Source: Pirellulaceae bacterium (GTDB lineage Bacteria > Planctomycetota > Planctomycetia > Pirellulales > Pirellulaceae). From it: a stretch of 64,000 nt of DNA. The stretch is from assembly GCA_019636385.1 (NCBI GenBank), contig JAHBXT010000001.1:806001-870000 (forward strand), in the 5' to 3' direction. Shown in pieces: positions 1-28,891 of the stretch (its first letter is position 1; each line of letters starts with the position of its first letter). Under the pieces are notes generated by a model, which saw only the letters and a list, made by a program, of their open reading frames with translations, was not told the DNA's origin and searched no databases. Both the position numbers and the translations under genes were made by a program.

Positions 1-14
1 AAAGGCGGTGGGCG

Positions 15-656
15 ATGACTGAGCAAGAAATTATCTCGGAAGTTCGTTCAATCGCAAAAGCTATGGCAATTCCGCGAGTTCTTTCAGGCGTTGTATCGTT
101 GAGTCTCAAGTACAGAGTGAGGCAACTGTTGATTAAGGCAGGCGTTCCGTTCGGACCGTGGAGCGATGGTAGGCAGTACTTAACAAAGCCAGGAACCATC
201 ATGTTCAACGGCAGTCCTGTAGCTACTCAAGTCCACAGGGCGGTTGTAGACGATTACGCTGTCGAGCTTTGCAACGCAATTGTTCAGCACTTGCAGTTAG
301 TGGATTGGGATTTACTGAGTGCAGCAATTCCAGAGTATTCGAATTGGACACCAGAGCAGGCCGAAGAGGCGCTCAGCCATGCGGCTAATGTCTTGCCAAA
401 ATTGGTTGATGAACTGGAAGCCTACTCGCAGGGAGCTTTGGCGAAGCCAGAAGGCGCTATCGAGGAGACTGAACGCAAGGAACGTGGTCTTGAGCTGTGG
501 AATAGCTCTCCGGCAGTGCAGTGGTCCGACGTTGCCGTAGCCCTTGACGGAACACCTGAGACAAAAAAGGCGGTCACTGAAGAAATCAAGCGATATGCCA
601 AGGCGAATAAACGATCCATTCGAAAGGCTAAACCAGGTGCCAAAAAGAGAAAATAA
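15..656 (+). CDS. Hypothetical protein with Lys/Arg-rich tail
   Basis: 213 residues, not recognised. The start has a purine-rich GGCGGTGGGCG stretch just upstream. The N-terminal half is mixed alpha/beta in appearance and soluble. Residues about 110-160 are rich in Glu and Ala and probably helical. The last 25 residues are strongly basic (many Lys and Arg, ending KPGAKKRK), which would suit nucleic-acid binding. No signal peptide or membrane segment. It is the leftmost complete gene and is followed by an intergenic region with GGAACG repeats, so it probably ends a transcription unit that begins to the left. Confidence 0.6.
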   Translation: MTEQEIISEVRSIAKAMAIPRVLSGVVSLSLKYRVRQLLIKAGVPFGPWSDGRQYLTKPGTIMFNGSPVATQVHRAVVDDYAVELCNAIVQHLQLVDWDLLSAAIPEYSNWTPEQAEEALSHAANVLPKLVDELEAYSQGALAKPEGAIEETERKERGLELWNSSPAVQWSDVAVALDGTPETKKAVTEEIKRYAKANKRSIRKAKPGAKKRK

Positions 657-658
657 AG

Positions 659-693
659 GGAACGAATAGGAACGAAAGGAACGTTCTATTCGT
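659..693. repeat. GGAACG direct repeats overlapping an inverted repeat
   Basis: Three GGAACG units start at about 659, 669 and 678 (spacing 10 and 9 nt). The same stretch forms an inverted repeat: ACGAATAGGAACG (662-674) against CGTTCTATTCGT (682-693), complementary apart from one bulged base. It lies 80 nt upstream of the HTH gene at 772. It could be an operator for that HTH protein, a terminator stem for the preceding gene (there is no clean T tract) or an initiator-binding site. Function is inferred only. Confidence 0.45.
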
Positions 694-771
694 GTATATT
701 TTCACTCTCAAATACCCCTTCTAAGATTCGTTTGTGGTCAAACCAACAACGAAATTTAGGAGGGGTTTCTA

Positions 772-1023
772 GTGAAAGTCGGACAGTATCAAAGTCCACC
801 AGAAATAGCGAAGCAACTGCGGGTCAGTTGTGACCGAGTTCTGCACTGGATCAATACCGGCAAACTGAAGGCCGTGAATCTATCCGAGGGTCACGAGCGA
901 CCACGCTGGAAGGTGTCGCCCGATGACCTGAGCTGCTTTCTGAAGACTCGCAGCAACCTAGCAGATATTTCTCCAGCGACAGAGCGTCGCGTGACAATCA
1001 AGCCGCGCCGGCAGCACGTCTAG
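772..1023 (+). CDS. Excisionase/MerR-type helix-turn-helix DNA-binding protein
   Basis: 83 residues. Translation starts at GTG 772, fixed by a strong Shine-Dalgarno run TTAGGAGGGG at 756-765. Residues 7-60 (SPPEIAKQL ... VLHWINTGKLKAV ... RWKVSPDDLSCFL) match the pattern of the short winged HTH family used by excisionases and phage regulators: an HTH, a wing reading 'G.L.A', then an Arg-rich strand and closing helix. The C-terminal 20 residues are basic. In integrative elements such proteins serve as recombination directionality factors or as repressors; which one this is cannot be read from the sequence. It is followed by a terminator-like hairpin, so it may be transcribed on its own. Confidence 0.75.
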   Translation: MKVGQYQSPPEIAKQLRVSCDRVLHWINTGKLKAVNLSEGHERPRWKVSPDDLSCFLKTRSNLADISPATERRVTIKPRRQHV

Positions 1024-1032
1024 AAAACGCGA

Positions 1033-1071
1033 ACGCCTCGGTTCGTGGCCGAGGCGTCGCAAGGGTTTTTT
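1033..1071 (+). terminator. Intrinsic terminator or attenuator
   Basis: Perfect 9-bp stem ACGCCTCGG (1033-1041) / CCGAGGCGT (1049-1057) with a 7-nt loop, followed after 8 nt by six T residues (1066-1071). It lies between the HTH gene and the TOPRIM gene. The gap between stem and T tract is longer than ideal, so partial read-through into the replication genes is plausible. Confidence 0.6.
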
Positions 1072-1093
1072 CTCCCAGCAAGGAGCGCTTCTA

Positions 1094-1993
1094 ATGGTAA
1101 TGGAAACATCCGCAAAAGGCAAGAAATCATCTTATGCCCCTAGACGCATAAAACGTCCTAGGAAAACAAAAGTTGAGATGACCAGCCTTCGCCAAGGCAT
1201 CTATGATTTGGCAAAGGAATTTCAGCCTCTCACGGTTCGGCAGCTATTCTATCGAGCGGTCGCAGCTAATTTGATCGACAAAACGCAGAAGGCTTACAAC
1301 CAAGATATTGTGCGGTTGGTTGGACTGATGCGCGAAGAAGGGCGGTTACCTTTTGAATGGGTCATCGACAACACTCGTTGGATGCGGAAGCCTAGGACGT
1401 ATGGCAGCCTGGAAAGCATGCTCTACCACTCGCAACGTACCTATCGTCGAGCGATTTGGGACGATCAAAATGCTTACGTTGAAATTTGGTGTGAGTCCGA
1501 TTCGATAGCAGGCGTTCTCTACGATGTAACCCAAGAATTTGACGTGCCCCTAATGCCATGCAGCGGGCAGCCCTCGAAATCATTCTTGCACAGCGCGGCC
1601 GAAAACATCGCCATCCAAGACAAGCCTTGTTTTCTGTACTATTTTGGCGATTACGACAAAGCAGGAATGGACATTTCTAAAAGAATCGCAAGGGATTTTA
1701 AGCGATATCTTCCCAGTGGTTGCGAGTGGCATTTTGAACGAGTGGCATTGAACAAAGAGCAGATTCGTGAGTTCAATTTGCCGACACGACCGCCAAAGGA
1801 TCGTAGAGGCGGATTCACAGAAACGGTGGAGCTGGAAGCGATGACAACACAGCAGTTGCACACAATCTGCCGTGCTTGCATCGAACAGCATATCAACCCT
1901 CATACGCTTTCAGCTACCAAGCTGGTTGAAATGTCGGAGCGCCAAACACTTGCACAGATTATTGAAAACTTGGAGGCAGGGCGCGATGAATAG
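1094..1993 (+). CDS. Topo mini-A-like (Spo11/TopoVI-A-related) TOPRIM protein
   Basis: 299 residues, start ATG 1094 preceded by AAGGAG at 1080-1085. A Lys/Arg-rich N-terminus (to about residue 28) is followed by a winged-helix-like segment with LTVRQLFYRAV, where Tyr53 sits where the catalytic Tyr of the 5Y-CAP domain is expected. A TOPRIM fold follows: Glu134 in WCESD and the DxD pair Asp186/Asp188 in YFGDYDKAG. ELEAM near residue 246 fits the C-terminal strand of the same fold. Spo11/TopoVI-A proteins are about 350-400 residues, so this is a short form. No ATPase (B) subunit gene is near, which matches the mini-A group known from bacterial mobile elements. Cleavage or relaxation activity is inferred. 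It heads the replication block. Confidence 0.75.
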   Translation: MVMETSAKGKKSSYAPRRIKRPRKTKVEMTSLRQGIYDLAKEFQPLTVRQLFYRAVAANLIDKTQKAYNQDIVRLVGLMREEGRLPFEWVIDNTRWMRKPRTYGSLESMLYHSQRTYRRAIWDDQNAYVEIWCESDSIAGVLYDVTQEFDVPLMPCSGQPSKSFLHSAAENIAIQDKPCFLYYFGDYDKAGMDISKRIARDFKRYLPSGCEWHFERVALNKEQIREFNLPTRPPKDRRGGFTETVELEAMTTQQLHTICRACIEQHINPHTLSATKLVEMSERQTLAQIIENLEAGRDE

Positions 1994-2138
1994 TCTCCAA
2001 CCAGATCGGTACCAAGTTTTAGAAGCCTTGCAGGCAACAGCAGAATTTACCAGTCGGCGCGGTGTAACTGATGGCAATTTGATTGCGTCCTATTTTGAAC
2101 TGATTCTTGAGGCAATTGTCCGAGGACTGACAGAATGA
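1986..2138 (+). CDS. Small protein of unknown function (50 aa)
   Basis: 50 residues starting at ATG 1986, with GGAGG about 8 nt upstream inside the end of the preceding gene. It overlaps that gene by 8 nt and the next one by 4 nt (ATGA), which argues for translational coupling and for a real gene despite its size. The sequence is mostly helical, with an acidic, hydrophobic C-terminal helix (ASYFELILEAIVRGL). No motif recognised. A start further upstream in the same frame exists but would overlap the TOPRIM gene extensively. Confidence 0.55.
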   Translation: MNSLQPDRYQVLEALQATAEFTSRRGVTDGNLIASYFELILEAIVRGLTE

Positions 2139-2842
2139 TGAATAACGGATTCATTCAATTACCCCGAAAGACAATCAACAAGCTGCGGGGACTAGGTGCT
2201 GAGTATCTCGATTTGTACGTTGCGATACTGGCGGCAGTGAACTACATGCCTGACGAGTTCCAAGGAGTCAAGATTCAGCCAGGGCAAATGGTGTTTTCTT
2301 GGCGCAATATTGCCGAGCGACTGTATCCATTGCACACGCCAGCTATCAACACTGTCAGATCGCGAATATCGCGACTTGAGAAGGCAGGATTGATCGAGAC
2401 GAAACCTATCTTCAGGTTTGATACTTCGATGCCGATTGCCACCCTCTTGGCTGTATCAAATTTTGATACGCGGTCTGATACGCGCCCTGATACGCGCTCT
2501 GATACAGAATTAATAAGGGGAGAGAAGGGGAAAGAAAGTACAGTTGCGCAAGCGCAACCAAGCGAGCAGTTCGAGGATTTTTGGAAAGCATATCCGCCTA
2601 GGAATGGCCGCAGACTTGAGAAGCAAAAAGCGCTCCAGCAATTCAGCCGCCTGAAGCCTGCCGACATACCGCTGGTCATGAAGGCCGTACAGTCATACGC
2701 AATCGCAGACGTATTACCTAAGGACGCATTCCGTTGGTTGAGAGATTCTTGGAGAGAGTGGTTGCAGGAACCATCGACCAATGGCAGCGCAACCAAGCCA
2801 CCACCCAAGCCAGCACAACGAGGTGCATCATGGATCGACTAA
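2135..2842 (+). CDS. Phage-type replication initiator / replisome organizer
   Basis: 235 residues, start ATG 2135 with GAGGAC about 8 nt upstream. Residues 1-110 look like a winged-helix DNA-binding domain (NIAERLYP ... INTVRSRISRLEKAGLIETK). Residues 111-125 are a repetitive linker of S/P-D-T-R units. Residues 145-210 match the conserved tail of phage O-like replication proteins (FWKAYPPRNGRRLEKQKALQQF followed later by FRWLRDSWREW). A Pro-rich end follows. The downstream DnaB-type helicase gene overlaps by 13 nt, so initiator and helicase are coupled, as in lambdoid O-P or initiator-DnaB modules. The linker-coding DNA is itself an iteron-like array. Role as origin-binding helicase recruiter is inferred from context and tail motif. 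Confidence 0.6.
   Translation: MMNNGFIQLPRKTINKLRGLGAEYLDLYVAILAAVNYMPDEFQGVKIQPGQMVFSWRNIAERLYPLHTPAINTVRSRISRLEKAGLIETKPIFRFDTSMPIATLLAVSNFDTRSDTRPDTRSDTELIRGEKGKESTVAQAQPSEQFEDFWKAYPPRNGRRLEKQKALQQFSRLKPADIPLVMKAVQSYAIADVLPKDAFRWLRDSWREWLQEPSTNGSATKPPPKPAQRGASWID
2417..2511. repeat. Iteron-like TGATAC array inside the initiator gene (candidate origin)
   Basis: Four 12-nt direct units start at 2464, 2476, 2488 and 2500: TGATACGCGGTC, TGATACGCGCCC, TGATACGCGCTC, TGATACAGAATT. A further TTTGATAC lies at 2417-2424. GTATCAAA (2453-2460) and TTTGATAC (2462-2469) form a perfect palindrome with one central T. An A-rich stretch (AGAATTAATAA) follows at 2506. The layout recalls origins embedded in phage initiator genes. 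The repeat may instead merely reflect a repetitive protein linker. Confidence 0.55.
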
Positions 2843-4137
2843 ATTGCCACGACCAGTCCGTCAGCTACAACGAGCGTAGCTTGCTGGCGGGCATTCTGAC
2901 CGGGCGAGTTCGATTCGAAGATGTTGATGGCGTTTGTCAGCCCGACGACTTCATCGACGACGACAATGCGTCCTTGTTCGCTTGTTTACGTGATATCGCA
3001 ATGTCAGGCCTTCCGTTGGCTTTGAGCGCCATACAGGCGGAACTGCATTCTCGTGGCTTGCTAGTGGGATTCGGTGGCGCGGATGGCTTGAGGTTGCTGC
3101 ACTCCGAGGGGCGCGTCAGTTGGCAGGCAGCGGCTTATCATGCGCAGCAGGTGGCGCAAGCTGGACGACGGCGCAGGCTGCGTGCCATGTTGCTTGAGGC
3201 AGCGGCGGATTGCGATTCCGACAGGCCAGCCGATGAGATTGTGCGCGGCATAGAGTCGCAAGTTCGCGACTTGGAGCCAGTGCGGTCCGACGATTACTAC
3301 AGCGCGGGACAAGCAGCGTCAGCGGCGCTTCAAGAGATCGAGTCTGCCAGAGCTTCGGGAACACAGCTTGGCCTGATGAGTGGTTTGCGCGACCTGGACG
3401 CGCATATCGGCGGCTTCAGGCCAGGGCAAATGGTTGTGCTGGCGGCGCGGCCGTCAATCGGGAAATCGTGCGTAGGCGCCGAGATTGCGCAGCGAGTTGC
3501 AGAGGCAGGCCGGCGCGTTCTGTTCGCAAATTTGGAAATGAGTAAGTCCGAAATGGGGACACGCTTCCTCAGTCGTCTATCGGGGATACCGAGTAACCTT
3601 CTGCGATCACCATGCACGCTTGACGATTCTGACCTTGCACGACTACGACGCGCTAACGAGCGAATGGCGGATTCGCATTTGATTCTCTGGGGCGGCGCTG
3701 GTCGCAGTATCGGCCAGCTATCGAGTGCAGCCAGGCGATTCCATGGTCGAGCGCCGATATCTCTGTTGGTGGTCGACTACTTGGGCCTAATCGCTGGCGG
3801 CGATGGCAAGAGTCGCTATGAGCAGGTCAGCACGGTCTCGCAGAAGGTTAAGTCGCTGGCTATGGAGCTAGAGCTACCGGTGCTGGCGATGTGCCAGTTG
3901 AATCGCGACAGTGAAAAAAACAATCGCGAGCCATGCTTAGCAGACTTGCGAGACAGCGGCGCGATAGAGCAGGACGCAGATATTTGTATCTTCATCGTGA
4001 GGCAGCGAGATAGCGAAAAATGCGTATTGAAGATTGCCAAATTCCGAAACGGTCAGCTTGGCAGCGTGCCAGTGCGGTTCGAGGGACAGTTCAGTCGCGT
4101 CACCGATGTAGCCAAGGAGCAGACATGGCGAGGATAA
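2830..4137 (+). CDS. dnaB: DnaB-type replicative helicase
   Basis: 435 residues from ATG 2830 (GAGGTG upstream). A DnaB-like N-terminal domain (residues 12-110, NERSLLAGIL) is followed by a linker helix and a RecA-like motor: Walker A ARPSIGKS at 206-213, Walker B LLVVDYLGLI at 312-321, then CQLNRDSE and ADLRDSGAIEQDAD at 356-384, which fit motifs H3 and H4. DnaB is normally about 450-470 residues, so this is near full length. It would unwind DNA as a hexameric ring at the element's fork. It overlaps the initiator by 13 nt and the next gene by 13 nt. GC-rich sequence compared with the upstream element genes hints at a separate origin of this module. Confidence 0.9.
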   Translation: MDRLNCHDQSVSYNERSLLAGILTGRVRFEDVDGVCQPDDFIDDDNASLFACLRDIAMSGLPLALSAIQAELHSRGLLVGFGGADGLRLLHSEGRVSWQAAAYHAQQVAQAGRRRRLRAMLLEAAADCDSDRPADEIVRGIESQVRDLEPVRSDDYYSAGQAASAALQEIESARASGTQLGLMSGLRDLDAHIGGFRPGQMVVLAARPSIGKSCVGAEIAQRVAEAGRRVLFANLEMSKSEMGTRFLSRLSGIPSNLLRSPCTLDDSDLARLRRANERMADSHLILWGGAGRSIGQLSSAARRFHGRAPISLLVVDYLGLIAGGDGKSRYEQVSTVSQKVKSLAMELELPVLAMCQLNRDSEKNNREPCLADLRDSGAIEQDADICIFIVRQRDSEKCVLKIAKFRNGQLGSVPVRFEGQFSRVTDVAKEQTWRG

Positions 4138-4421
4138 AACCGAAGCGAATCGCAGCAGCGGCGTGCAGACAATGCCAACGTCGATCGTACTGGCTGGCCG
4201 ACGGTGCGCGTTGTAGTGCGTGCGTGGCGCAGGCGAGATCACAACAGCGTGCCACCCCTGCCAAGCGAAACGTCGAAGACCGGTCGAAAATGTTGAAACG
4301 CTGCCCGGTGCGCAGGTGTCCCGAATGCGGCGGGAAGTACGACGCGTGGCCGCCAGGCTCCAAGATTTGCTTCGAGTGCGTGATTGAGCGGCATAAGGAG
4401 GCGTGCGTGGATGGCCAGTGA
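4125..4421 (+). CDS. Small four-CxxC zinc-ribbon protein
   Basis: 98 residues from ATG 4125, with AAGGAG just upstream and a 13-nt overlap with the helicase gene. It has four paired-cysteine motifs: CRQC and CSAC in the N-terminal half, CPEC and CFEC in the C-terminal half, giving two probable zinc-binding ribbons about 15-20 residues long each. Between them lies a basic stretch (ARSQQRATPAKRNVEDR). Small proteins of this kind in phages and plasmids are often transcription or replication accessory factors. Nothing narrows the role here. Confidence 0.6.
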   Translation: MARIKPKRIAAAACRQCQRRSYWLADGARCSACVAQARSQQRATPAKRNVEDRSKMLKRCPVRRCPECGGKYDAWPPGSKICFECVIERHKEACVDGQ

Positions 4422-4599
4422 AAAATGGGCGGATGTTCCAATCCGGTTTATCGAGAGGCCACGTTGCCCACATTGCGGCAGCGGGGACAGGCCGATTATT
4501 GTCCGCAGCCAATCCGAGAGCGACGGTTCAGTTACCCGGCGTTGCGTTTGCCGGTCATGCAGTCGGCGATTTTTGCTTGTCATCGAAGACCAGGAATAA
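4411..4599 (+). CDS. Small zinc-finger protein (Mu Com-like pattern)
   Basis: 62 residues from ATG 4411, with AAGGAGG at 4396-4402; it overlaps the preceding zinc-ribbon gene by 11 nt. One cysteine pair CPHC is followed about 25 residues later by CVCRSC, with a run of Arg and Phe after it (SCSRRFLLV), a treble-clef or rubredoxin-like knuckle. The pattern CPxC ... CRSCxRxF is like short phage zinc fingers such as Mu Com. Probably nucleic-acid binding; the partner is not known. Confidence 0.55.
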   Translation: MASEKWADVPIRFIERPRCPHCGSGDRPIIVRSQSESDGSVTRRCVCRSCSRRFLLVIEDQE

Positions 4600-4604
4600 C
4601 GTGT

Positions 4605-4619
4605 TGCCAAAATTTGGCA
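4605..4619. promoter_or_regulatory. 15-bp perfect palindrome
   Basis: TGCCAAA (4605-4611) and TTTGGCA (4613-4619) around a central A, just after the stop of the zinc-finger gene and 45 nt before the gene at 4665. There is no T tract, so an operator is as likely as a terminator. Same 1-nt-centre geometry as three other palindromes in the element. Confidence 0.4.
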
Positions 4620-4664
4620 GATTGGATTTTGGGTTCGGTATCATTCACGAAAGGAGTTTGATTC

Positions 4665-5102
4665 ATGTTCCAAAAACTAAAAGCGATTCTAGGTATCCCA
4701 CCACAGCCAGCTGAGGCAAAAACGGTTGGACCACAGATTCCTACGGTTCGAGGTGATTTACCGATGTACATTCCGGAGTCTCAGCTACCGGAGGGTGATG
4801 GCGAAGTGTTCACTCCGTGGCGGGTGGATGTTCGTGGCAAGTTGTGGTACAAGCGGCTGTCGAATGACCGGCCAGACAGCACCACCGCCACCCACGCGAT
4901 TCGTGCAATCGCAGACGATGGCTGGTCCGATCCGTTGTCACCCGATGACCCCGCGGAGCTATTCCCGAAGTTCCTTGACAGTGACGGCGTCGAAAAAATC
5001 AACGTCGATCTCTGCCGGCGCAATGCTGCGGCTCGGATTCTCGCAAGAGATTTTGCAAAGCGGGAAGAAATTTTGGAGGGTTGCGACGATGACGACGAAT
5101 GA
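4665..5102 (+). CDS. Hypothetical acidic protein
   Basis: 145 residues from ATG 4665, with AAAGGAG 9 nt upstream. Not recognised. It has a Pro-rich N-terminal third, a central segment (WRVDVRGKLWYKRL ... TATHAIRAIADDGWSDP) and a helical C-terminal part ending in a run of Asp. No signal peptide, membrane segment or metal motif. The last 14 nt overlap the next gene, so the two are probably coupled. Confidence 0.55.
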   Translation: MFQKLKAILGIPPQPAEAKTVGPQIPTVRGDLPMYIPESQLPEGDGEVFTPWRVDVRGKLWYKRLSNDRPDSTTATHAIRAIADDGWSDPLSPDDPAELFPKFLDSDGVEKINVDLCRRNAAARILARDFAKREEILEGCDDDDE

Positions 5103-5646
5103 GAGATGGCGGCTGGCTGTCCACGAAAGCGCCCACGCGGTTGCAGCGGTTTTACTCGGTGGAAAATGCACTGGGGTACTGGTTAAACAATCCTGCGGTG
5201 TCGCCTTCGTATCCCAGTTATGCGTTGACCGCGATGCACTTTGCTACGCAGCAGGACCAGCAGCGGAATCTCTTGCCACCGAATTTGACCCACCTAGCGA
5301 AATTGAACGGACGGCGGACGAGCTAACAAATACGCAGCTACCTACATCGACCGATGAGCATTTTCGACGCCACTGTGCTTTCGCCGATTTTGATGAGTTG
5401 CCGAGGGGGTTGCAGCAGGACTGTCAGCATGTCGCTAGGTGGTGTGTGACCGGCCATGAAGAAAACCCACACATTTGGGCGAACAGATATTTTTATTTGC
5501 AACGGCGAGCAACGGATTTTGTTGAGCAAAACAAAGAGGCAATCATTGCGGTTGCTGAATCGTTGTACCGCCAGACGGCGTTGAGTGGTGATGAAATTTC
5601 GAAAATTCTAACGGAGGTTTTACATGATGTTGCGTTACTCGGATGA
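5089..5646 (+). CDS. Stand-alone HExxH protein, FtsH-peptidase (M41)-like
   Basis: 185 residues from ATG 5089; the ribosome site GGAGGG lies about 10 nt upstream, inside the preceding gene, which decides this start over one far upstream. The N-terminus has WRLAVHESAHAVAA with the zinc motif H12-E13-x-x-H16, then an 'AAGPAAESL' segment and an acidic 'EIERTADEL' segment. This order resembles the M41 peptidase domain of FtsH (HEAGHA, then GGRAAEEL, then an acidic third-ligand region), but the AAA+ motor and membrane anchor are absent. A protease role is inferred; it could act on host or phage proteins or be a non-catalytic relative. It overlaps both neighbours. Confidence 0.6.
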   Translation: MTTNERWRLAVHESAHAVAAVLLGGKCTGVLVKQSCGVAFVSQLCVDRDALCYAAGPAAESLATEFDPPSEIERTADELTNTQLPTSTDEHFRRHCAFADFDELPRGLQQDCQHVARWCVTGHEENPHIWANRYFYLQRRATDFVEQNKEAIIAVAESLYRQTALSGDEISKILTEVLHDVALLG

Positions 5647-6313
5647 CGTTGAGCGACGGTCGGCACATCGAAGCGAAATAAAAAAACGGATTCGCGAGTC
5701 CGAGATTGCGGCCTTGCGTTACCAGGATTTGCAGAGCATTATCCGCCAATTGGATGCCGATAGCGATCGGGCGGCGAGCGAGCACGAGGCGGCAGCGTCC
5801 GCCATCCAAGCGGAGCTTAGCCAGTTGCACTTGGATTTACTTTCCGGCAAGCCAGCGGCAGACGTTTCCAAGCGACGGGCGGAGCTTTTAGCTGAGCTTA
5901 CTGAGCTTAATCGAAAATTGGAAACCCGTTGCCAGTCAAACAAGCTTTCAAAGGAAAGCCTTGAGCGCCAAGCATCGACGCTGTACGGCGCGAGCCTGGA
6001 ACGAACGAATTTGGAAAATCGTTTGGTTGGAATTTGCAGCGATGAGACTCGAAGGAAACGGCAACGCAACAAGTTTCTGCAACAGGCACTGGCAGGCGCG
6101 ATTGGTGTTTGTGCTGAGTCGATCAAGCCGCTTGTGCACAACGCGCAAGTCTTCGAATTGAACGAAGCAAATGGATTTGGGCGCGATGATGCCGCGGACG
6201 ACACTCGCGAAAAACTGGATGACTGGCAACATGCACTCGGAGAAATCCAATCACGTCAGGCAGATTTGCAGCGTGAGTCAGATCGTTTGCGGCAAGCGGC
6301 ACTGGATGAGTAA
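5624..6313 (+). CDS. Coiled-coil protein of unknown function
   Basis: 229 residues from ATG 5624, with ACGGAGG 8 nt upstream; overlaps the HExxH gene by 23 nt. Residues 10-130 and 195-229 are rich in Glu, Arg, Leu, Ala and Gln with heptad-like spacing, so long coiled coils are likely (for example AELLAELTELNRKLETR). A short middle segment (about 150-185) has a different, partly hydrophobic make-up. No enzymatic motif. It closes the overlapping block and is followed at once by a strong hairpin. Scaffold or structural role is only a guess. Confidence 0.6.
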   Translation: MMLRYSDDVERRSAHRSEIKKRIRESEIAALRYQDLQSIIRQLDADSDRAASEHEAAASAIQAELSQLHLDLLSGKPAADVSKRRAELLAELTELNRKLETRCQSNKLSKESLERQASTLYGASLERTNLENRLVGICSDETRRKRQRNKFLQQALAGAIGVCAESIKPLVHNAQVFELNEANGFGRDDAADDTREKLDDWQHALGEIQSRQADLQRESDRLRQAALDE

Positions 6314-6314
6314 T

Positions 6315-6343
6315 AACTGTAGCTTTTCTCCTAAGCTACAGTT
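6315..6343 (+). terminator. Strong stem-loop after the coiled-coil gene
   Basis: Perfect 11-bp inverted repeat AACTGTAGCTT (6315-6325) / AAGCTACAGTT (6333-6343) with a 7-nt loop TTCTCCT, starting 2 nt after a stop codon. No T tract follows, so it may end or stabilise the upstream message rather than act as a textbook intrinsic terminator. Confidence 0.5.
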
Positions 6344-6356
6344 GGATGAGCGTGGA

Positions 6357-6387
6357 GGGTGGCCAGTTAGAACCCGGCTGGTCACCC
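6357..6387. other. Second hairpin in a structured intergenic region
   Basis: GGGTGGCCAG (6357-6366) pairs with CTGGTCACCC (6378-6387) with one G-U pair. Further right CACCCTCC (6399-6406) can compete for GGAGGGTG on the left side, so two alternative folds are possible. The interval 6314-6508 has no convincing gene. It may hold a leader, a small RNA or a protein-binding site. Confidence 0.35.
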
Positions 6388-6508
6388 GAAGCGTTTCACC
6401 CTCCCCCCGGGCTTGGGTCCTTCCGGCGACTTTTCAGGTGCTCCGCAATTCCGCAGCCCGCGCATTGGCAGATACAGTGACAGCCTACCTTCCGAAAATC
6501 GAGATCAC

Positions 6509-7303
6509 ATGAGTAAGCGACTTCACAACCGCCTGGACCGCCTGGAAAAGCCAGCTGGACCCGACTTGAGCCAGTCCGATCGGTTGTTATTGGTGTCGAT
6601 TCTGGGCAGGCGAGACGCATTATTCTGGCCGTGGCGCTGGCAGATTGGCATACAGCCACCCATGACGGAGATTCGGCGTAGGCAGCGTGAGTACCTATCG
6701 GGCGTGAGTGGCGTTGCTGTTCACGCTGATGGCAAGCGCCAATGGAAAAACTCGCATTCGGCACGTCAGCGGTTGATCGGCGCTAAGATGGTCACAGCGA
6801 CCCATTCCAGTGGTCAGGTTACTTCGATGTTCTTGACGCCACTGGGTGAAGCCTACGCCAGATCGCTGGTTGGCGGATTGGAAACAGTAGAATCAGCGTT
6901 GCCAGTCATCCAAGCGCTAAGAATGCTATCGGAAGCAACCTCAGTAGCGGCTGTGCGTGAGTCGGTGCTATTCAATCGTGATTGCGTAGGCAATCCTGAA
7001 GACTGGTCGCACTTGACCGAGTTGGTGTTGCCATTCTTGACCAGCGGCATGGTCACCTGCCATTCAGATACCCAGGGGCGGATTGCATACACTCCCCAAG
7101 AGGTTGAGCCACCAGCGGCTATTGCGGTTGATGTTGCAGTCGATCCCGAAGCAGACCGAGTTTACTTCGATGGCTACGAGTCCGAACGCAACGCATTAGA
7201 GACCGCTGAGCCGCGCGGCCCGACCGAGGTTTTCATTCCACTGCCAGCTACTGGTTGGGGATGGCCATGCTATTATCCTGGATGCCTAGATGAAGAAATC
7301 TAA
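6509..7303 (+). CDS. Hypothetical protein
   Basis: 264 residues from ATG 6509 (MSKRLHNRLDRLEKP). The frame is open from further upstream, but the region before 6509 is highly structured, and the basic, helical MSKRL..RLDRLE opening is typical of a true N-terminus; the ribosome site is weak. Residues 45-130 look like a winged-helix unit (RQREYLSGVSG ... RQRLIGAKMVTATHSSGQVTSMFLTPLGEAYA). The C-terminal part contains Val/Ala-rich strands and ends in WGWPCYYPGC. Not recognised. It overlaps the next gene by 14 nt. Confidence 0.55.
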   Translation: MSKRLHNRLDRLEKPAGPDLSQSDRLLLVSILGRRDALFWPWRWQIGIQPPMTEIRRRQREYLSGVSGVAVHADGKRQWKNSHSARQRLIGAKMVTATHSSGQVTSMFLTPLGEAYARSLVGGLETVESALPVIQALRMLSEATSVAAVRESVLFNRDCVGNPEDWSHLTELVLPFLTSGMVTCHSDTQGRIAYTPQEVEPPAAIAVDVAVDPEADRVYFDGYESERNALETAEPRGPTEVFIPLPATGWGWPCYYPGCLDEEI

Positions 7304-7649
7304 GTTTGTGCAAGTTCTGGCGGCAGCGGTGGCCAGCGGTTCATCGGTCAAGGATGCTGCGGCAGTTGCTGGCTGTGCTGAGTCCACAGCGTATAGCGTG
7401 AGTTGTACGGCTGAATTTAGGGCTGAGGTAACCAGGCTGAAAACAGCGGCAGTGGACAACGCTGTTTGTGTGTTGACTGCCAATGCAGCGGCGGCGTCAC
7501 AAGCGCTAGTTAAACTTCTATCGAGCGACGATGAAAAGATTGTCTTAGCGGCTGCGGGCAAGTTGCTGGCCGTAATCGGGCCGCTGCAAGAGTTGGCTGA
7601 ACTGAGGGTCCGCATTGAGCAACTTGAGCAGTCCAGAGCCGCCGCCTAA
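7290..7649 (+). CDS. HTH protein, possible small-terminase-like or regulator
   Basis: 119 residues from ATG 7290. Residues 8-40 form a homeodomain-like HTH (AAAVASGSSVKDAAAVAGCAES), followed by an Ala/Leu-rich helical segment (LTANAAAASQALVKLL ... KIVLAAAGKLLAVIG) and a C-terminal coiled-coil helix (LAELRVRIEQLEQS). HTH plus oligomerising helix is the architecture of phage small terminase subunits, but no large subunit gene follows, so a DNA-binding regulator is equally possible. Last plus-strand gene of the element. Confidence 0.5.
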   Translation: MKKSKFVQVLAAAVASGSSVKDAAAVAGCAESTAYSVSCTAEFRAEVTRLKTAAVDNAVCVLTANAAAASQALVKLLSSDDEKIVLAAAGKLLAVIGPLQELAELRVRIEQLEQSRAAA

Positions 7650-7719
7650 CGCACTGGGGCGACGCCGAATGCTTGGCGATGTTTCGGCAGGCAATGAAGG
7701 GCGTCAACCAGCACGACAT

Positions 7720-7742
7720 GCCCAGTGATATTATCACTGGGC
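7720..7742. other. 23-bp perfect palindrome between convergent genes
   Basis: GCCCAGTGATA (7720-7730) and TATCACTGGGC (7732-7742) around one central T. It lies in the 203-nt gap between the convergent genes ending at 7649 and 7853, where a bidirectional terminator would fit, although neither side has a T tract. The gap also holds an open frame of 38 codons (7679-7795) that I do not call as a gene. Confidence 0.45.
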
Positions 7743-7852
7743 AGAAGTCGAAGACCGGCAACAGCAAGGCCAATTCATGCCGACCGGCATTTTGAACGAG
7801 GTTTTCCTAAAACTTGGTCGGCTGAACGGGAGAAATCGGCTCTAAGCATTAT

Positions 7853-8503
7853 TTAAGGATCTGGGCTTCCAGCAGTTCCAACTTGCTCCTCTTCAAGGTA
7901 AACATGCGGAATAAGAACAGGTTGTCGAAGCCCTTCGCGCTGGCCTTGAGAAATCACAGCCCACTCCACATCAACGACCTTCATAGTGGAGCCATTCTCG
8001 GGTGTGAGCAGTTCGCCAATTCTTGGTACAGATGGAGCATAGCATCCATGAAGTCTCTTGTGAGTTATTTCTGAGCAGTCCACTAATTCGATGTAATGTA
8101 ATGAACCAAGCCAATCCATGCTCCGGTCAGGTGCGTGAGTGGCAAAGTGAGAGCCAGAAGAGGTAAGTTTTTTTGTTCCAACAGAAAATCTACCCTGCAA
8201 TATACAAAGGTGGATAACTTGCCCGGCAGTAGTATCATCGAGTCCATCACGATAAAGCCTGTCTTTTATTGCCAGTCCGTCATCGGCGTCTAATCGGCCC
8301 ATCTCAACATCTTCAATTATGTCTTCCACTTTCCGTTGAGTTTCACAACTAATTCCGAATGAATCTGCCTCCTGTTTGAGCATAGACTCGAATCCGTGAA
8401 GCAGTCCATACATTCGAGCAGCCGAAACCGATTCACCTGCGGCCCATCGTTGTAGACGTAATACCTCTGCGAGAACTACTGCGTTTGGTACCAGAGTTGT
8501 CAT
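7853..8503 (-). CDS. Hypothetical protein, only minus-strand gene of the element
   Basis: 216 residues from ATG 8503. Not recognised. The N-terminal half (1-100) is helical, with an acidic stretch (KVEDIIEDVEMGRLDADDGLAIKD) and a segment YGLLHGFESML; the C-terminal half looks like a small beta barrel (PSVPRIGELLTPENGSTMKVVDVEWAV ... VLIPHVYLEEE). No membrane segment. A 19-bp palindrome lies 40 nt upstream of the start, where an operator would be. Its isolated, opposite orientation near the attachment site is where elements often keep a regulator or cargo gene. Confidence 0.55.
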   Translation of the reverse strand: MTTLVPNAVVLAEVLRLQRWAAGESVSAARMYGLLHGFESMLKQEADSFGISCETQRKVEDIIEDVEMGRLDADDGLAIKDRLYRDGLDDTTAGQVIHLCILQGRFSVGTKKLTSSGSHFATHAPDRSMDWLGSLHYIELVDCSEITHKRLHGCYAPSVPRIGELLTPENGSTMKVVDVEWAVISQGQREGLRQPVLIPHVYLEEEQVGTAGSPDP

Positions 8504-8542
8504 GGGTTCGTTTTGCTCCTGGACAGGTTCAGTTATTCACAA

Positions 8543-8561
8543 CAGTTGTAGTCTACAACTG
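8543..8561. promoter_or_regulatory. 19-bp palindrome, operator-like
   Basis: CAGTTGTAG (8543-8551) and CTACAACTG (8553-8561) around a central T, 40 nt upstream of the minus-strand gene starting at 8503 and about 95 nt from the tRNA break. The position fits an operator, or a recombination-protein site near the element end. Confidence 0.45.
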
Positions 8562-8652
8562 CTAAGGGTGAAAAACGGGGGTTTTCGGGGAGTGGAGATT
8601 ATCGCAAACCCAAGGAAAACAAGGTTTTCTTAGAGGGTGTCGAATACGCCTT

Positions 8653-8696
8653 AGGATTTTCAAAACCGGTGCAATCGACCACTCTGCCACCCATCC
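8653..8696 (-). tRNA. Partial tRNA-Ser(UGA), 5' half only, likely attachment site
   Basis: Read on the minus strand from 8696: acceptor strand GGATGGG, TG, a D-arm GCAGAGTGGTCGATTGC and the anticodon-arm start ACCGGTTTTGAAAA with anticodon TGA (8662-8660). This is the pattern of a bacterial type II tRNA-Ser. From 8656 leftward the sequence no longer pairs with the anticodon stem, and there is no GGTTCGAATCC T-arm and no CCCATCC acceptor strand within 90 nt, so the gene is cut at the anticodon arm. Inference: crossover within the anticodon loop during integration, with the other tRNA half at the left end of the element. Confidence 0.75.
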
Positions 8697-8940
8697 GATT
8701 CAGCTTCGGCCAACTTGCGAGCCGACGTTCACAACTGAAAAACTTGCTGCGCACGGCGCTGTCGGCCGCATAGCCAGCCTGTGGGGCCGACATTTTATAG
8801 AGTGTTGCCCAAACAATCGAGCCCCAAGAGGCAGCTGGACCGGGACAGTTTTTCGGTTTGCAACGCCGGGCACTAGCCTAATCCGCCGCGTTAGCGAGGT
8901 ACTGATCAAACTTTTGCTGGCAGGTGCAGTAGGCTGACGG
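8697..8940. other. Intergenic region upstream of the tRNA-Ser fragment
   Basis: No gene is supported. On the minus strand a TATAAAAT box (around 8796-8803) lies about 100 nt before the tRNA 5' end and could be part of a promoter, but no good -35 element is seen at the right spacing. Confidence 0.3.
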
Positions 8941-10068
8941 CTATTTCCCGAAGGCCTGCGCCAAATCAGCGATCAAGTCATCGACATGTTCAACACCGAC
9001 GCTCAGCCGCAGCAACGAGTCAGTAATTCCAATCCGCTGACGTTCGGCAGCCGTCAGTCGCGCGTGCGAAGTCTGCGCAGGGGCACAGATCAATGTCTCT
9101 ACTCCCCCGAGGCTGACTGCGGGTCGAATGAGCTGAAGCCGCAACAAAAACTGGGTCGCATCAACCTCCGGCGACAGCTCGAATGACATCATTGCTCCAA
9201 AACCGGTCATTTGCTCTCGAGCAATCTGATGACCTGGGAAATTGGCCAGGCCCGGATAGTTGACTCGTCGGATGGTTGGCTGACCAGCGAGATACTCGGC
9301 GACATGCTGTGCGTTTCGCGTCTGCCGCTCGACTCGCAACGCCAGCGTCTTCAAACTGCGTTCTAACAGATGGCAGGTCAGCGCATTGACATTGCCACCC
9401 AACGTACAAGCGACTGCTTGAATCTGAACAACCAACTGAGAGCTAGCCAGCACTACTCCGCAACTGAGGTCACTGTGCCCGCCCAGATACTTGGTGCCGC
9501 TGTGTACCACGATATCAATGCCCAAGCCACCCGGTGTCTGGTTGATAGGACTGGCAAAGGTGTTATCGGCGATAGTGGTAATCGACCGCTGCCGCGCGAT
9601 TTGGGCTACGCGACGCAAGTCGATGACATCCAAAAGCGGATTGGTCGGGGATTCCACGACGATGGCGGAGGTCTGGGCGGTAATGGCGCTCTCAACCGCC
9701 GCTGCATCTGTGGGCACAAATGAACACTGCACGCCCAGTCCAGCTAACGTTTGTGAGGCGAGAGCGTGGGTGCCGCCGTACACCGAATCCAACACGACCA
9801 AATGACTGCCGGCTTTAACCTGAGACAGGATGGCAGCGGTCATAGCAGCCATGCCAGAGCTGAACAGCAATCCATCTTGCATGCCTTCGAGCGCGCACAG
9901 CTTGTGGACTACCGCGCGCTGATTGGGGGTATTGAAGTGCCGCGGATAGAGCATCTCGGCTCGATCGATGTATTCAAAGGCTGATGATGCAAAAATCGGA
10001 GTATTGACCCCGCCCACCGCCGCATCGCGATACGTGCCAGCGTGAACACAGCTTGTCTCTTTTTTCAT
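8941..10068 (-). CDS. Cys/Met-metabolism PLP enzyme (cystathionine gamma-synthase/lyase family)
   Basis: 375 residues from ATG 10068, the usual family length; a longer reading from 10140 would overlap the neighbouring gene. Fold-type I PLP enzyme: SSGMAAMTAA (70-79) for phosphate binding, Tyr97 in DSVYGGT, Asp168 in IADNTFASP, and Schiff-base Lys193 in SGTKYLGGHSD. The usual YSR...NPT substrate loop reads YPRHFNTPN (41-49), a small deviation. The family covers cystathionine synthase, cystathionine lyase and methionine gamma-lyase; the sequence does not decide among them. Cytosolic. It is last in a minus-strand run, 23 nt after the decarboxylase-like gene. Confidence 0.85.
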   Translation of the reverse strand: MKKETSCVHAGTYRDAAVGGVNTPIFASSAFEYIDRAEMLYPRHFNTPNQRAVVHKLCALEGMQDGLLFSSGMAAMTAAILSQVKAGSHLVVLDSVYGGTHALASQTLAGLGVQCSFVPTDAAAVESAITAQTSAIVVESPTNPLLDVIDLRRVAQIARQRSITTIADNTFASPINQTPGGLGIDIVVHSGTKYLGGHSDLSCGVVLASSQLVVQIQAVACTLGGNVNALTCHLLERSLKTLALRVERQTRNAQHVAEYLAGQPTIRRVNYPGLANFPGHQIAREQMTGFGAMMSFELSPEVDATQFLLRLQLIRPAVSLGGVETLICAPAQTSHARLTAAERQRIGITDSLLRLSVGVEHVDDLIADLAQAFGK

Positions 10069-10091
10069 AGTTGATGCACTACTCTGTCGAT

Positions 10092-10769
10092 TTACGCAGA
10101 CACTGGAAAATGCATGGTGAAGGGCTGGACTTTGAGACATGCCAGCGGTTTGACTTGGCTAACGTCTGGAAATTGCTGGCTGTCTACGTGCAGCTCCGTC
10201 ACCCGGGCTAACCGCCCCCAACCCAAGCCGCGCGGATTAACGCGGTAGGCAACTCCGGACAATTCCTGGTACAACTTGATCGGCAGCAATCGAGTCGTCA
10301 CCGGGAATGGTGGTCCGCTGTGTTTGACCTGGCAATAGAAAACAGGACGGTCGGCTGGACCAACCAACAACGAGTCGGTTTTTCCGGCAACGCGCCACTG
10401 CATGGGAAGCGTCGATTTGGGAATGCCCCAGTTGTAACGACCGTTGTCCGTGCTGGCTGGCGAGTCCACAAAAATGCGAGTTATCGACTGGCAACCATGC
10501 GGCTCGAACTTACCGGGAATGATCAGCAGTTCGCGGTAGGGTCCGACTGGCGACTGGTGATAATTGACCAGCATCACGTAGCCCAAGCCACCGCGAAACT
10601 GTCCGCGCTGCCGCTGATCCAACCAACCGTTCTCTTCAACCCATTGGCGACTGAACTTGTAAATCAGAATGATACCTTCGCCGGTCAGCTTCCAGGGTGC
10701 CGGTCGATGCTCCGGTGGCCGGGCCGGGCCGCACGATGCGGTGGATGCAGCAGGATCGGTGGCCGACAT
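10092..10769 (-). CDS. Acetoacetate-decarboxylase-like protein
   Basis: 225 residues from ATG 10769, chosen because GAGGGAG lies 8 nt upstream; the frame is open for another 45 codons. Residues 28-90 (LTGEGIILIYKF ... GGLGYVMLVNYHQSPVGPYRELLIIPG) and WGIPKS (114-119) match the ADC fold, where a lysine in a 'GxPK' loop forms the Schiff base; here that is Lys118. The family includes enzymes with quite different aldol or decarboxylation chemistry, so a ketone-forming decarboxylase is only one option. It lies between an amidohydrolase (56 nt upstream) and the trans-sulfuration enzyme. Confidence 0.7.
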   Translation of the reverse strand: MSATDPAASTASCGPARPPEHRPAPWKLTGEGIILIYKFSRQWVEENGWLDQRQRGQFRGGLGYVMLVNYHQSPVGPYRELLIIPGKFEPHGCQSITRIFVDSPASTDNGRYNWGIPKSTLPMQWRVAGKTDSLLVGPADRPVFYCQVKHSGPPFPVTTRLLPIKLYQELSGVAYRVNPRGLGWGRLARVTELHVDSQQFPDVSQVKPLACLKVQPFTMHFPVSA

Positions 10770-10825
10770 CGTGGTCTCCCTCGTCAAATAGGCCGATTTC
10801 GTGATGTTGATAATCGCGGAGGGTC

Positions 10826-12568
10826 TCAATAAAGATGTTTCCCCTTCAGGAAACACCCGTAGCGCTGCGAACCAAATTGCTGGGCGAATGCGCCATCTTC
10901 CCAAGCTATGCGGCCGCCGATCATGACCAATTTGACGACCTCATCGTTGCGGTTGACCAGGCGCTGGGTGCCGCCTAAAAAGTCTGCGTAGTGGTACTCG
11001 TGCACGCTATCATCCAGCCGGTCGAAGTCGATAACTACAATATCGGCCCGGCTTCCCTCTTGGATGACTCCCGCGTCGATGTGGAAGAAGTCGGCGTTTT
11101 CTTTGGTCAGCCGCCAGATCAGTTTTTCGTAGCTCATGAAAGGATCGCCGCGCTCGTGAGCGTCCTTCAAGTACTTGATCGACCGCAGCGGAAAATTGTA
11201 CAGCGCCAGGTTGTCAATGTGCGCTCCCGAATCAGCGAAGCCGAAAATGGCGTTGGGGTTGGTGTACAGCTTCTTGTAACGCAGTGGATCGTGATTGCCA
11301 ATCGTTGTCTTCCACTCAATTTGCGAATCCATATCAACCACGATATCCAGGAAAGCATCCACCGGGTGCTGATTACGCTGCCGAGCGATTTCTAGAAAGG
11401 ACTTGCCGATCCAAGACTTGTCCGGTGCATCCGTGACGAAGGCGTCGCCAAAATCCTTTTGCCAGATTTTCGGTGCCAGTCGATTGGCGTAATGTCGCTT
11501 GAACTGTTGACGATACTTGGGGTCTTTCAGGGTCGCATCACGTTGCTGGCGATCGCGGGCTAGATGGCGTGCCAGCTGCCCAGTGGGGAACTCTTCAAAG
11601 ATCACCAGGTCCATGCCCTTGGCGTATACCGTAAATGGCACGGGCAGCGCCTGCATGCGAAAATCGGCGCGCAGCACTTTGTTGAAGAAGGTGGCAATAG
11701 CGCTCAGCAGACTCAAGATATACGGGTCGCCCTTGAGGTCCATCATGGCTACCATCGAAGTCCGCAACCGCTTGCGCCAAAAGAACGCTGAGCTTTGCGT
11801 CATGTACCATAAGGCCGCTACGCGACTGACCAAGTTGGGCACGCCCTGCAAATGCCCGTCGCGGCGCCGAGCCACTGCGGTGAGCGCTCCACGTTCCCGG
11901 CGATTGGCGTAGGCTGCGGGCAGGAGCTTGGACCAATGACGGCCATCCATCTTGTCCCAAGGATTATGCTGCATCGAAATGCCGATGAAGCCGGCGTCCA
12001 TCGACTCTTCCAAATAACCCACCATCTGCTGAATTTCAGCCGGCGTGGCCGACTGCTTGGGGTCGAGCGATCGATCGATACCCATGGCGCGAGCACGTAT
12101 ATCAGAATGCCCCAGGAATGAAACATAGTTTGGACCTACCGGCAGCGTGTGCATGTGATCCAGCCAGCCGCGCGTATCGTTCCAACGCTTCTGATCATGC
12201 AAGATCGGCAGCAACACATCGCGCGGGAAAGCCTCTACGCGAGTAAACATGTCACAGCAGTCTTCGACATTGGAATAGATAAAGGACAGCGAACATGATC
12301 CCAGCATCACTGTCGTTACACCGTGGCGCACCGATTCGCTGAGCGAGGGAGCGACCAATACCTCGCCATCGTAGTGCGTATGATTGTCGATGAACCCTGG
12401 CACGACCCACTTGCCGGCAGCCTCAACGACCTTGGTGTCTGGCCCGACCTCAATCGCGCGCTCGGAGATGGCCGTCACCCGGCCTTGTTGTACCAACACA
12501 TCGGCCATGCGGGATGGTCGATCGTGCCCGGAGAACACGCGTCCACCGCGAATTAAGATGTCTGACAC
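10826..12568 (-). CDS. N-acyl-D-amino-acid deacylase-type amidohydrolase
   Basis: 580 residues from GTG 12568 (AAAGAGAGG upstream). Amidohydrolase family 3 organisation: N-terminal small beta domain (ILIRGGRVFSG), metal site NHTH with His63 and His65, Cys92 in LGSCSLSF (D-aminoacylases have a bridging Cys here), LGHSDIR near 153, and FADSGAH with the catalytic Asp near residue 450; a final beta strand domain closes it (ADIVVIDFD). These enzymes hydrolyse N-acyl amides of D-amino acids, and relatives act on other N-acyl compounds. No signal peptide. The neighbouring PLP enzymes and transporter suggest it removes an acyl group from an imported substrate. Confidence 0.85.
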   Translation of the reverse strand: MSDILIRGGRVFSGHDRPSRMADVLVQQGRVTAISERAIEVGPDTKVVEAAGKWVVPGFIDNHTHYDGEVLVAPSLSESVRHGVTTVMLGSCSLSFIYSNVEDCCDMFTRVEAFPRDVLLPILHDQKRWNDTRGWLDHMHTLPVGPNYVSFLGHSDIRARAMGIDRSLDPKQSATPAEIQQMVGYLEESMDAGFIGISMQHNPWDKMDGRHWSKLLPAAYANRRERGALTAVARRRDGHLQGVPNLVSRVAALWYMTQSSAFFWRKRLRTSMVAMMDLKGDPYILSLLSAIATFFNKVLRADFRMQALPVPFTVYAKGMDLVIFEEFPTGQLARHLARDRQQRDATLKDPKYRQQFKRHYANRLAPKIWQKDFGDAFVTDAPDKSWIGKSFLEIARQRNQHPVDAFLDIVVDMDSQIEWKTTIGNHDPLRYKKLYTNPNAIFGFADSGAHIDNLALYNFPLRSIKYLKDAHERGDPFMSYEKLIWRLTKENADFFHIDAGVIQEGSRADIVVIDFDRLDDSVHEYHYADFLGGTQRLVNRNDEVVKLVMIGGRIAWEDGAFAQQFGSQRYGCFLKGKHLY

Positions 12569-12609
12569 GGTCGAGGCCTCTCTTTAGGCTAAGTGCCTTA
12601 AAACTTCAT

Positions 12610-13218
12610 TCATCCTCGGGATTTTGCGTTAGCTGCCAGACCAAAGCAAATCAACGACGCTGCTAAAAGGTAGTGGAACACATCGATTCTCAAGGCTGGG
12701 CTGGACAGATATCCACCGGACCAAACGGCCGCTGCGGATAGAACCAGAGCCGCCAGCAAAAACGCGCCAATCGCTTGCTTGCCCATAACGCAGGCGGCTA
12801 GGCCGCAAGCCAGCACGCTGACCATTGCCACCAATTGCATCGATCCGCGCAGGGAATCGGCGACTCCTGTCACGACCAGGGCCAACATCACCAAGCCAGC
12901 TACCAAGAAAGCGTAGACCGTTACCTTCTGCGGCGGCCCGCGAGAAATCAGGCCGTAGCTGCCCAGCATCAATCCGCATGAACCCAGCGTGGCGACGACT
13001 TGTTGCAAGCGATTGGAAATATCAACCATGTTTTCATGCACACCAGCAAACCGCAGAGCACCAAACAGCGCTGCCAGGGCGACAGGCACCAAAAACACTC
13101 CCCACAGCGTTGCCATCTGCACGCCCAACCTCGGAAAGTACCGGACAAAGGAGTACGCGCCTGAAGCGGCCAGCACCAAATCGGAGATCACATGGGAAAG
13201 CTGCACAGTGCGGCTCAC
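12610..13218 (-). CDS. Small polytopic membrane protein, about seven segments
   Basis: 202 residues from GTG 13218, sharing one nucleotide with the stop of the upstream lyase gene. Almost entirely hydrophobic, with six or seven predicted helices. Conserved-looking polar residues sit at the membrane ends: His9 and Asp13 in SHVISDL of the first helix and FHYLLA in the last. A Ser/His/Asp-in-first and His-in-last pattern is loosely like the CREST group (alkaline ceramidase, PAQR), but a full HxxxH motif is missing, so I do not assign it. Tight coupling to the sphingosine-phosphate-lyase-like gene suggests the same pathway. Confidence 0.7.
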   Translation of the reverse strand: MSRTVQLSHVISDLVLAASGAYSFVRYFPRLGVQMATLWGVFLVPVALAALFGALRFAGVHENMVDISNRLQQVVATLGSCGLMLGSYGLISRGPPQKVTVYAFLVAGLVMLALVVTGVADSLRGSMQLVAMVSVLACGLAACVMGKQAIGAFLLAALVLSAAAVWSGGYLSSPALRIDVFHYLLAASLICFGLAANAKSRG

Positions 13219-27871: not shown

Positions 27872-28891
27872 GTGGCTGCGACGCAAGTACTAGTAACAGG
27901 GTATGGCGGATTTTTGGGAGCTGCCATCTGCCGCCAATTGTTGGCACGAGGCATGGCGGTGCGCGGTCTGGCTCGTGGTGATTATCCCGAGCTTCGAGGG
28001 CTGGGGGTGCAGACTTTGCGTGGCGACGTTGCCAATCCCAGCGACTGCGCTGCCGCTTGCCGAGGCTGCGACGTGGTTGTACATACCGCAGCCAAGGCCG
28101 GGGTCTGGGGACGGTGGGAAGACTACTACCAAACCAATACAGCGGCTACACAAGTACTGCTTGGTACCGCAATCGAGCAGGGAGTTCACGCCTTTGTCTA
28201 TACCAGCAGCCCCAGTGTCACATTCGATGGCCGTCATCAGTCCGGCGCTGACGAGACCGAGCCTTATCCACAACGGTGGTTATGTCACTATCCACAAACC
28301 AAGGCGCTGGCGGAACAGGCGGTCACGGCAGCGGCAGAGCAAGGCAAGGTGATGGCCTGTTCATTGCGACCGCATTTGATTTGGGGTCAAGGTGACCCGC
28401 ATTTATTTCCACGAGTCATCCAGCGAGCCATCAGCGGACGGCTCATGCGCGTAGGTAGCGGGCAAAATCTGATCGATGTCGTGCACGTCGACAACGCGGC
28501 TCGCGCGCATCTGCTGGCCATGGATCGACTGCTAGACAACGATCAACGACTGAACGGTCAGCGTTTGTTCATCACCGACGGACAGCCTGTTGCTTGTTGG
28601 GAGTGGATTTCGCACATACTAACTACTGCCGGACTGCCCGTCCCTAAACGCAGCATTTCCTTTAGAACTGCCTATCGCTTGGGGGCGATATTCGAGGGAG
28701 TCTTTCGCGCGCTCCGGCGCACATCGGAGCCGCCCATGACCCGGTTTGTGGCAGCGCAATTGGCTTTGGATCATTACTTCAACATCGATCAAGCCCGCAC
28801 GCTATTGGGCTATCAACCTAGCATCGATAGGTCAGCAGAGTTCTCGCGTTGCGCCGATTGGCTGCATAGCTTAGCCATGCGCCCAGTCTAA
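27872..28891 (+). CDS. NAD(P)-dependent epimerase/3beta-hydroxysteroid dehydrogenase family protein
   Basis: 339 residues from GTG 27872 (GGGAG upstream; the ATG two bases earlier is out of frame). Extended short-chain dehydrogenase: nucleotide-binding TGYGGFLG (9-16), Ser113 in TSSPSV, catalytic Tyr140 and Lys144 in CHYPQTKALAEQ. LRPHLIWGQGDPHLFPRVI and the downstream NLIDVVHVDNAARAH are typical of the 3beta-HSD/OleD-like subgroup rather than sugar epimerases. Substrate could be a sterol-like or beta-keto/hydroxy acid. It stands alone on the plus strand, converging with a desaturase gene 131 nt away. Confidence 0.85.
   Translation: MAATQVLVTGYGGFLGAAICRQLLARGMAVRGLARGDYPELRGLGVQTLRGDVANPSDCAAACRGCDVVVHTAAKAGVWGRWEDYYQTNTAATQVLLGTAIEQGVHAFVYTSSPSVTFDGRHQSGADETEPYPQRWLCHYPQTKALAEQAVTAAAEQGKVMACSLRPHLIWGQGDPHLFPRVIQRAISGRLMRVGSGQNLIDVVHVDNAARAHLLAMDRLLDNDQRLNGQRLFITDGQPVACWEWISHILTTAGLPVPKRSISFRTAYRLGAIFEGVFRALRRTSEPPMTRFVAAQLALDHYFNIDQARTLLGYQPSIDRSAEFSRCADWLHSLAMRPV

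Follow-up and report, generated by a model that had tools for sequence, protein, structure and literature searches.

An origin of replication placed inside an initiator gene is a design that is already known, since the ori of phage lambda lies in the middle of gene O and includes an AT-rich tract with purine asymmetry (PMC5043065; PMC7466680), oriL of the Bacillus phage SPP1 sits in gene 38 (PMC6316719), and the rep boxes of the plasmid pSK41 are found centrally in rep, where the origin-coded middle of the protein is a dispensable linker (PMC5703833). Here we describe a probable locus of this kind in 64,000 nt of DNA from a Pirellulaceae bacterium. This stretch is called the window; all positions refer to it, and negative ones lie upstream of its first nucleotide.

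The initiator gene of a 10.1-kb integrative element very probably contains the element's replication origin, in the segment from 2453 to about 2543. The assignment is based on sequence, namely on the position of the segment, its repeat structure, constraint at the DNA level, the co-variation of palindrome and iterons and the order of the genes. From these we infer that the initiator binds, that the DNA melts and the helicase is loaded, and that the element replicates once excised.

The element integrated at tRNA-Ser

The 10.1-kb element is delimited by perfect 44-bp direct repeats. The right repeat (8657..8700) is identical to the left one at -1432..-1389 (L010:18568-18611), which lies inside and just beyond a tRNA-Ser(TGA) gene. 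The element is inserted in the 5' half and anticodon loop of this gene and not at its 3' end; the region upstream of the tRNA gene is therefore now derived from the element.

All recognised genes around the array are on the + strand. A tyrosine integrase gene (PHROG integrase, 1.1e-37) starts at -1184 and its 3' end occupies 1..18 of the window. It is followed by a small HTH gene resembling an excisionase or regulator (772..1023; HTH_17 at 4.8e-5, below cutoff; PHROG excisionase, 0.0012) and, upstream of the initiator gene, by a topoisomerase-VI-A/DUF2399-like gene (1094..1993; PHROG DNA topoisomerase, 2.6e-45; DUF2399 just under cutoff). The sequence-only reading had placed the array gene directly before a DnaB-type gene, and the replicative helicase gene (2830..4137; Pfam DnaB_C 7.8e-65, DnaB N 9.2e-9) indeed overlaps the stop of the initiator gene. 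Several further ORFs have no family assignment. One of them, at about 5080-5646, contains a HESAHAVAAVLLGG motif and resembles FtsH-type metallopeptidases; the frame tested had no PHROG match. A 119-aa ORF (7290-7649) shows a weak likeness to a terminase small subunit (phrog_641, E 0.043), which, if real, would suit a satellite that depends on packaging. A search of window 1-12000 with Rfam returned no RNA family.

Capsid, portal, tail or lysis genes were not recognised in the 10.1-kb element; because it has no recognisable structural genes we call this island at tRNA-Ser satellite-like, and we claim no helper for it. A relative of it, found in a different genome, shows a similar order of genes, and its integrase and 3'-end genes are related as well. 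A related element of about 10 kb in G088 (L014:5999-16001) is bounded by a 40-bp repeat in tRNA-Val and carries integrase, initiator and DnaB genes. It also has a gene in which head protease and major capsid protein are fused (10861-12918; phrog_4523, 1.2e-54), and no tail or terminase gene was recognised among its ORFs that were scanned; possibly it is a capsid-forming satellite. In the DNA examined for L013, L015 and L016 no attachment repeats were detected.

It is conceivable that the array is a former origin and that the element has become defective, a remnant which no longer excises or replicates. The lack of recognisable capsid, tail or lysis genes and the several ORFs without assignment would agree with such a history. 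However, the reading frames of integrase, initiator and DnaB are uninterrupted, the two 44-bp attachment repeats do not differ, and the same module occurs in the small tRNA-integrated element of G088. We therefore consider a loss of function unlikely.

The repeat array inside the initiator gene

The gene at 2135..2842 (+ strand) encodes a protein of 235 aa, which was assigned from PHROG matches, an AlphaFold model and fold matches in the PDB. The earlier suggestion that the array sits inside a probable replication initiator is in good agreement with the PHROG replication initiation families that the product matches: replication initiation protein (phrog_270, 1.8e-8), DnaD-like helicase loader (phrog_2514, 8.7e-8) and phrog_186 (2.8e-6). 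Each match covers either the N-terminal domain or the protein from its centre towards the C-terminus. The protein is composed of an N-terminal winged-helix domain (aa 11-107), a disordered linker (about aa 108-140) and a C-terminal helical domain (aa 142-210). In the AlphaFold model the pLDDT is >90 in the winged-helix domain and <50 for residues 114-139; the C-terminal helical part is moderately confident. The best named matches among viral structure models were replisome organizers. In the PDB the best full-domain matches were the N-terminal domains of plasmid Rep proteins (4pql/4pt7; Z 8.8-8.9 over 95 residues), with other winged-helix proteins scoring almost as high. The initiator had no match to Pfam Phage_rep_O (HTH_24 at 0.02, below cutoff, was the only Pfam hit), to Pfam RepA_N or in NCBIfam, and it has no features that mark it as an AAA+ protein. 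A profile search of PDB sequences gave nothing meaningful, and single-protein pattern scans of viral and genome contigs returned no close relatives.

The observation of a repeat array in this gene was confirmed. As had been read, five direct copies of TGATAC (+ strand; 2419, 2464, 2476, 2488 and 2500) and an inverted one (2453-2458) fall within 95 bp, and the three units at 2464, 2476 and 2488 follow each other at exactly 12 nt and all read TGATACGCG. The adjoining palindrome is also perfect; it comprises 17 nt at 2453..2469, GTATCAAATTTTGATAC, or GTATCAAA-T-TTTGATAC. Its half-sites equal the iteron core and its right arm is part of the first 12-nt repeat. Both direct reading and Tandem Repeats Finder place the iteron array at 2464..2505 (+ strand), where TGATACGCGNNC recurs every 12 nt in 3.5 copies; with period 12 and a score of 70 it is the top entry among the 20 that the program gave for the window. 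The 12-nt phase applies to the units from 2464 onward, but not to the outlying TTTGATAC copy (2417..2424, + strand), whose hexamer at 2419 is 45 nt off and out of phase. The last copy, at 2500, contains TGATAC but reads TGATACAGA, without GCG.

Such a cluster is not expected by chance. In 100 first-order random sequences of 64 kb the maximum was 2 hexamers per 95-bp span, compared with 6 in the window, and when the array peptide was recoded synonymously with the element's own codon usage, 6 hexamers appeared in 0 of 50,000 trials (P about 2e-5). The two-unit pattern TGATACGCGNNCTGATAC has three occurrences in the 5.69-Mb genome, every one of them in this array.

The A-rich stretch reported next to the array was recovered as well. 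The A-richest 45-nt segment of the gene overlaps the end of the array, beginning 10 nt before it (about 2498-2542), and the purine-richest segment begins 1 nt further. The resulting tract (2498..2543, + strand), A-rich and asymmetric in its purines, is a candidate DNA unwinding element; its purines exceed those obtained by synonymous recoding (p=0.004). Array and tract encode the disordered linker (about aa 108-140).

Palindrome and direct repeats together would also fit a repressor, and binding by itself makes no origin. The array could then be a site at which the initiator or another regulator acts in autoregulation or transcription control, with the origin elsewhere. We regard this as quite improbable, because the array lies in mid-gene and not at a promoter, no promoter-like excess was found near it, the purine tract adjoins it, the part of the element within the window has no second TGATAC cluster, and lambda and SPP1 are precedents. 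A DnaA-assisted design for the probable origin has no support, as window 1-8208 contains no match to the DnaA box TTATCCACA with at most one mismatch. At 28264-28296, well outside the element, a perfect TTATCCACA is accompanied by CTATCCACA on its strand, at a distance of 24 nt.

Arrays in related initiators

Relatives of the initiator were gathered by genome search across family, class and phylum. L050 and L029 were left out as poor matches; in L008 and L009 the likeness to the window protein is confined to the C-terminal part, and they are weak cases. The relatives are partly non-independent, since L033-L035 are near copies of each other, as are L047 and L048.

In nearly all close relatives an array is found at the same linker position, but it is built from other units. 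The unit types include TGATAC, TGGTAC, TGACAC, TGATGC, GTACCA and GACAACC, with periods of 12 or 11/22 nt, and the linker peptides read DTHLDTHP (L002), GTVPGTVP (L003), DTPADTRT (L004), DTIADTIA (L006), DADSNAES (L007) and GVPxxVP (L024). We judged the repeats against shuffles of codon order, with p at most 0.02 taken as significant; the annotated iterons of lambda O, a positive control, were detected weakly (p=0.02). The sequence-only reading had held that homologues without repeats would speak against an origin. A significant repeat was present in 33 of 41 initiators, compared with 0 of 18 control genes, and was absent in eight (L005, L027, L028, L040, L045, L049, VanLee and Olaya), two of which, L005 and L040, have weak repeats at the expected place; these eight bear out the objection in part. 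The lag was 11, 12, 22, 23 or 24 in 30 of the 33 significant cases. Mid-gene repeats at lag 11, 12, 22 or 23 also occur in most of 46 non-redundant phage initiators from IMG/VR, a count made without a per-gene null. The lag-12 signal of phage Lagaffe was rejected as an array; it is probably a repetitive helix.

Conservation at synonymous positions had been proposed as a check on the origin, and codon pairs for the same residue at lag 4 were identical in 60 of 68 cases vs 26 expected. A clear period of 11 or 22 nt, at which successive copies are read in different frames, was found in nine relatives (L025, L037, L038, L039, L042, L043, L044, L051 and L053); the periods 11, 12, 22 and 23 are all near one or two helical turns. 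The repeat might instead be a four-codon tandem duplication that was selected or tolerated only for the length of a peptide linker, as the in-frame 12-nt period in the window and the predicted disorder of the encoded residues would allow, but this is very improbable, since the 11- and 22-nt periods change frame and therefore cannot be explained in this way in those nine arrays, third positions are conserved, the peptides are wholly different while the architecture stays, and palindrome and purine tract are left unexplained. Origin and linker expansion had both been left possible by the sequence-only reading; the relatives largely settle the choice in favour of the origin, with the position kept while unit, peptide and period vary. 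The comparison, which covers dozens of relatives, shows that it is the DNA, and not the encoded peptide, for which the repeats are maintained.

The palindromes vary together with the iterons. Palindromes with cores matching their iterons are present in L004, L005, L006, L007 and L033-L035, and the pairs of half-site and core are GTATCA/TGATAC in the window and L005, GTGTCA/TGACAC in L006 and L033-L035, and GCATCA/TGATGC in L007. A single domain that reads both would account for this joint change. Among 43 initiators of Lactobacillus phages the array is common to pairs that are alike in the N-terminal half, and not to pairs alike only in the C-terminal half. In 178 pairs with like C-terminal and unlike N-terminal halves about 5% of the array 7-mers are in common, whereas L063 and L111, whose N-terminal halves are 80% identical and whose C-terminal halves are unrelated, have 51% of them in common, in AAGTGTCCATC units. 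The co-inheritance supports recognition of the array by the N-terminal half without proving it; because the array and the N-terminal domain are neighbours, physical linkage could also give joint inheritance.

In 23 of 30 genes, compared with 2.7 expected, the A-richest 45-nt segment begins between -20 and +45 nt from the end of the array. Arginine is encoded by AGA/AGG in 28 of 32 cases in the tract and in 34 of 211 elsewhere in the same genes (p=1.6e-15). Part of the tract could be driven by the protein, since in several relatives the Lys/Arg/Asn-rich peptide is enough to account for its purine excess. A nearly identical post-array tract, ACAAGAATGNNAAGAATGA, is present in the phylum-level relatives L043, L044 and L051 and in Lactobacillus phage Lc-Nu (L057); this likeness could reflect a common unwinding element or a common peptide. 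The three-base steps TAG-AAG-AAG that follow the array in relatives are reminiscent of DnaA-trio motifs.

The candidate origin and described systems

The following mechanism would be consistent with this arrangement. The N-terminal winged-helix domain may bind both the palindrome and the 12-nt iterons, which follow one another at roughly each helical turn. Strain from this complex would melt the adjoining purine- and A-rich tract, and the C-terminal domain, with DnaB from the next gene, would then be placed on the exposed strand.

Whether one rule applies to winged-helix phage-type initiators of several bacterial phyla seems to us an evenly balanced question. According to such a rule, the origin dictates the linker after the domain (iterons of 11, 12, 22 or 23 nt, at helical-turn spacing, then a purine-rich unwinding tract), and domain and array move as one replaceable module, so that each gene displays its own recognition site. 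A limited search of the open-access literature found no statement of this helical-turn rule. Because the DNA-binding domain and its probable sites are in one gene, each such gene would be a natural record of protein-DNA recognition; if the rule is true, a catalogue of them would make thousands of naturally paired proteins and sites available for work on winged-helix specificity. Repeats phased at 11/12 nt and followed by a purine tract inside an initiator gene would be a simple origin test for uncharacterised phages and islands. For the satellite-like element described here, which is unstudied and comes from a bacterial group with few genetic tools, the probable origin is narrowed to about 90 bp, and these would be a direct start for replicating plasmids in that group.

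The element resembles phage-inducible chromosomal islands, which are likewise small integrase-replication elements with a specific att site and no structural genes; their origins, however, are found on the 3' side of the initiator gene and consist of an AT-rich region between two sets of iterons, whereas the window array is inside the gene (PMC6092414). For a terminase small subunit, another mark of such islands, the element offers the weak candidate at 7290-7649. RepA_N replicons such as pSK41 have a winged-helix N-terminal domain, possibly of similar fold (4pql/4pt7), that binds boxes inside its own gene, but pSK41 is a plasmid and not an integrative element, its Rep contacts the host primase, and Pfam RepA_N is not matched by the window initiator. 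SPP1 oriL also combines direct repeats and an AT-rich unwinding element in the gene of the origin-binding protein, with a DnaB-type helicase in the replication module. It differs by its additional origin and by a loader that is a protein of its own, gp39; the likeness is drawn from the published description.

The likeness to the O-P genes of lambda, which had been noted from the sequence, stands for the anatomy but not for the proteins: the initiator has no match to lambda O in Pfam (Phage_rep_O), and the next gene encodes DnaB and not a P-type loader. In both loci iterons in mid-gene are directly followed, after the last iteron, by an A-rich purine-asymmetric tract, and a gene for a replication partner comes next; the segment of O that is richest in A and in purines sets in over the last 10 nt of iteron 4, an offset that the window gene shares. 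The iterons of lambda are inverted repeats of 18-19 bp at a spacing of 20-24 bp, which bind O dimers, while the window has contiguous 12-nt direct repeats and one palindrome. The novelty lies in this member of a known design, whose contiguous 12-nt iterons are unusually tight, and in the comparative case for a widespread architecture.
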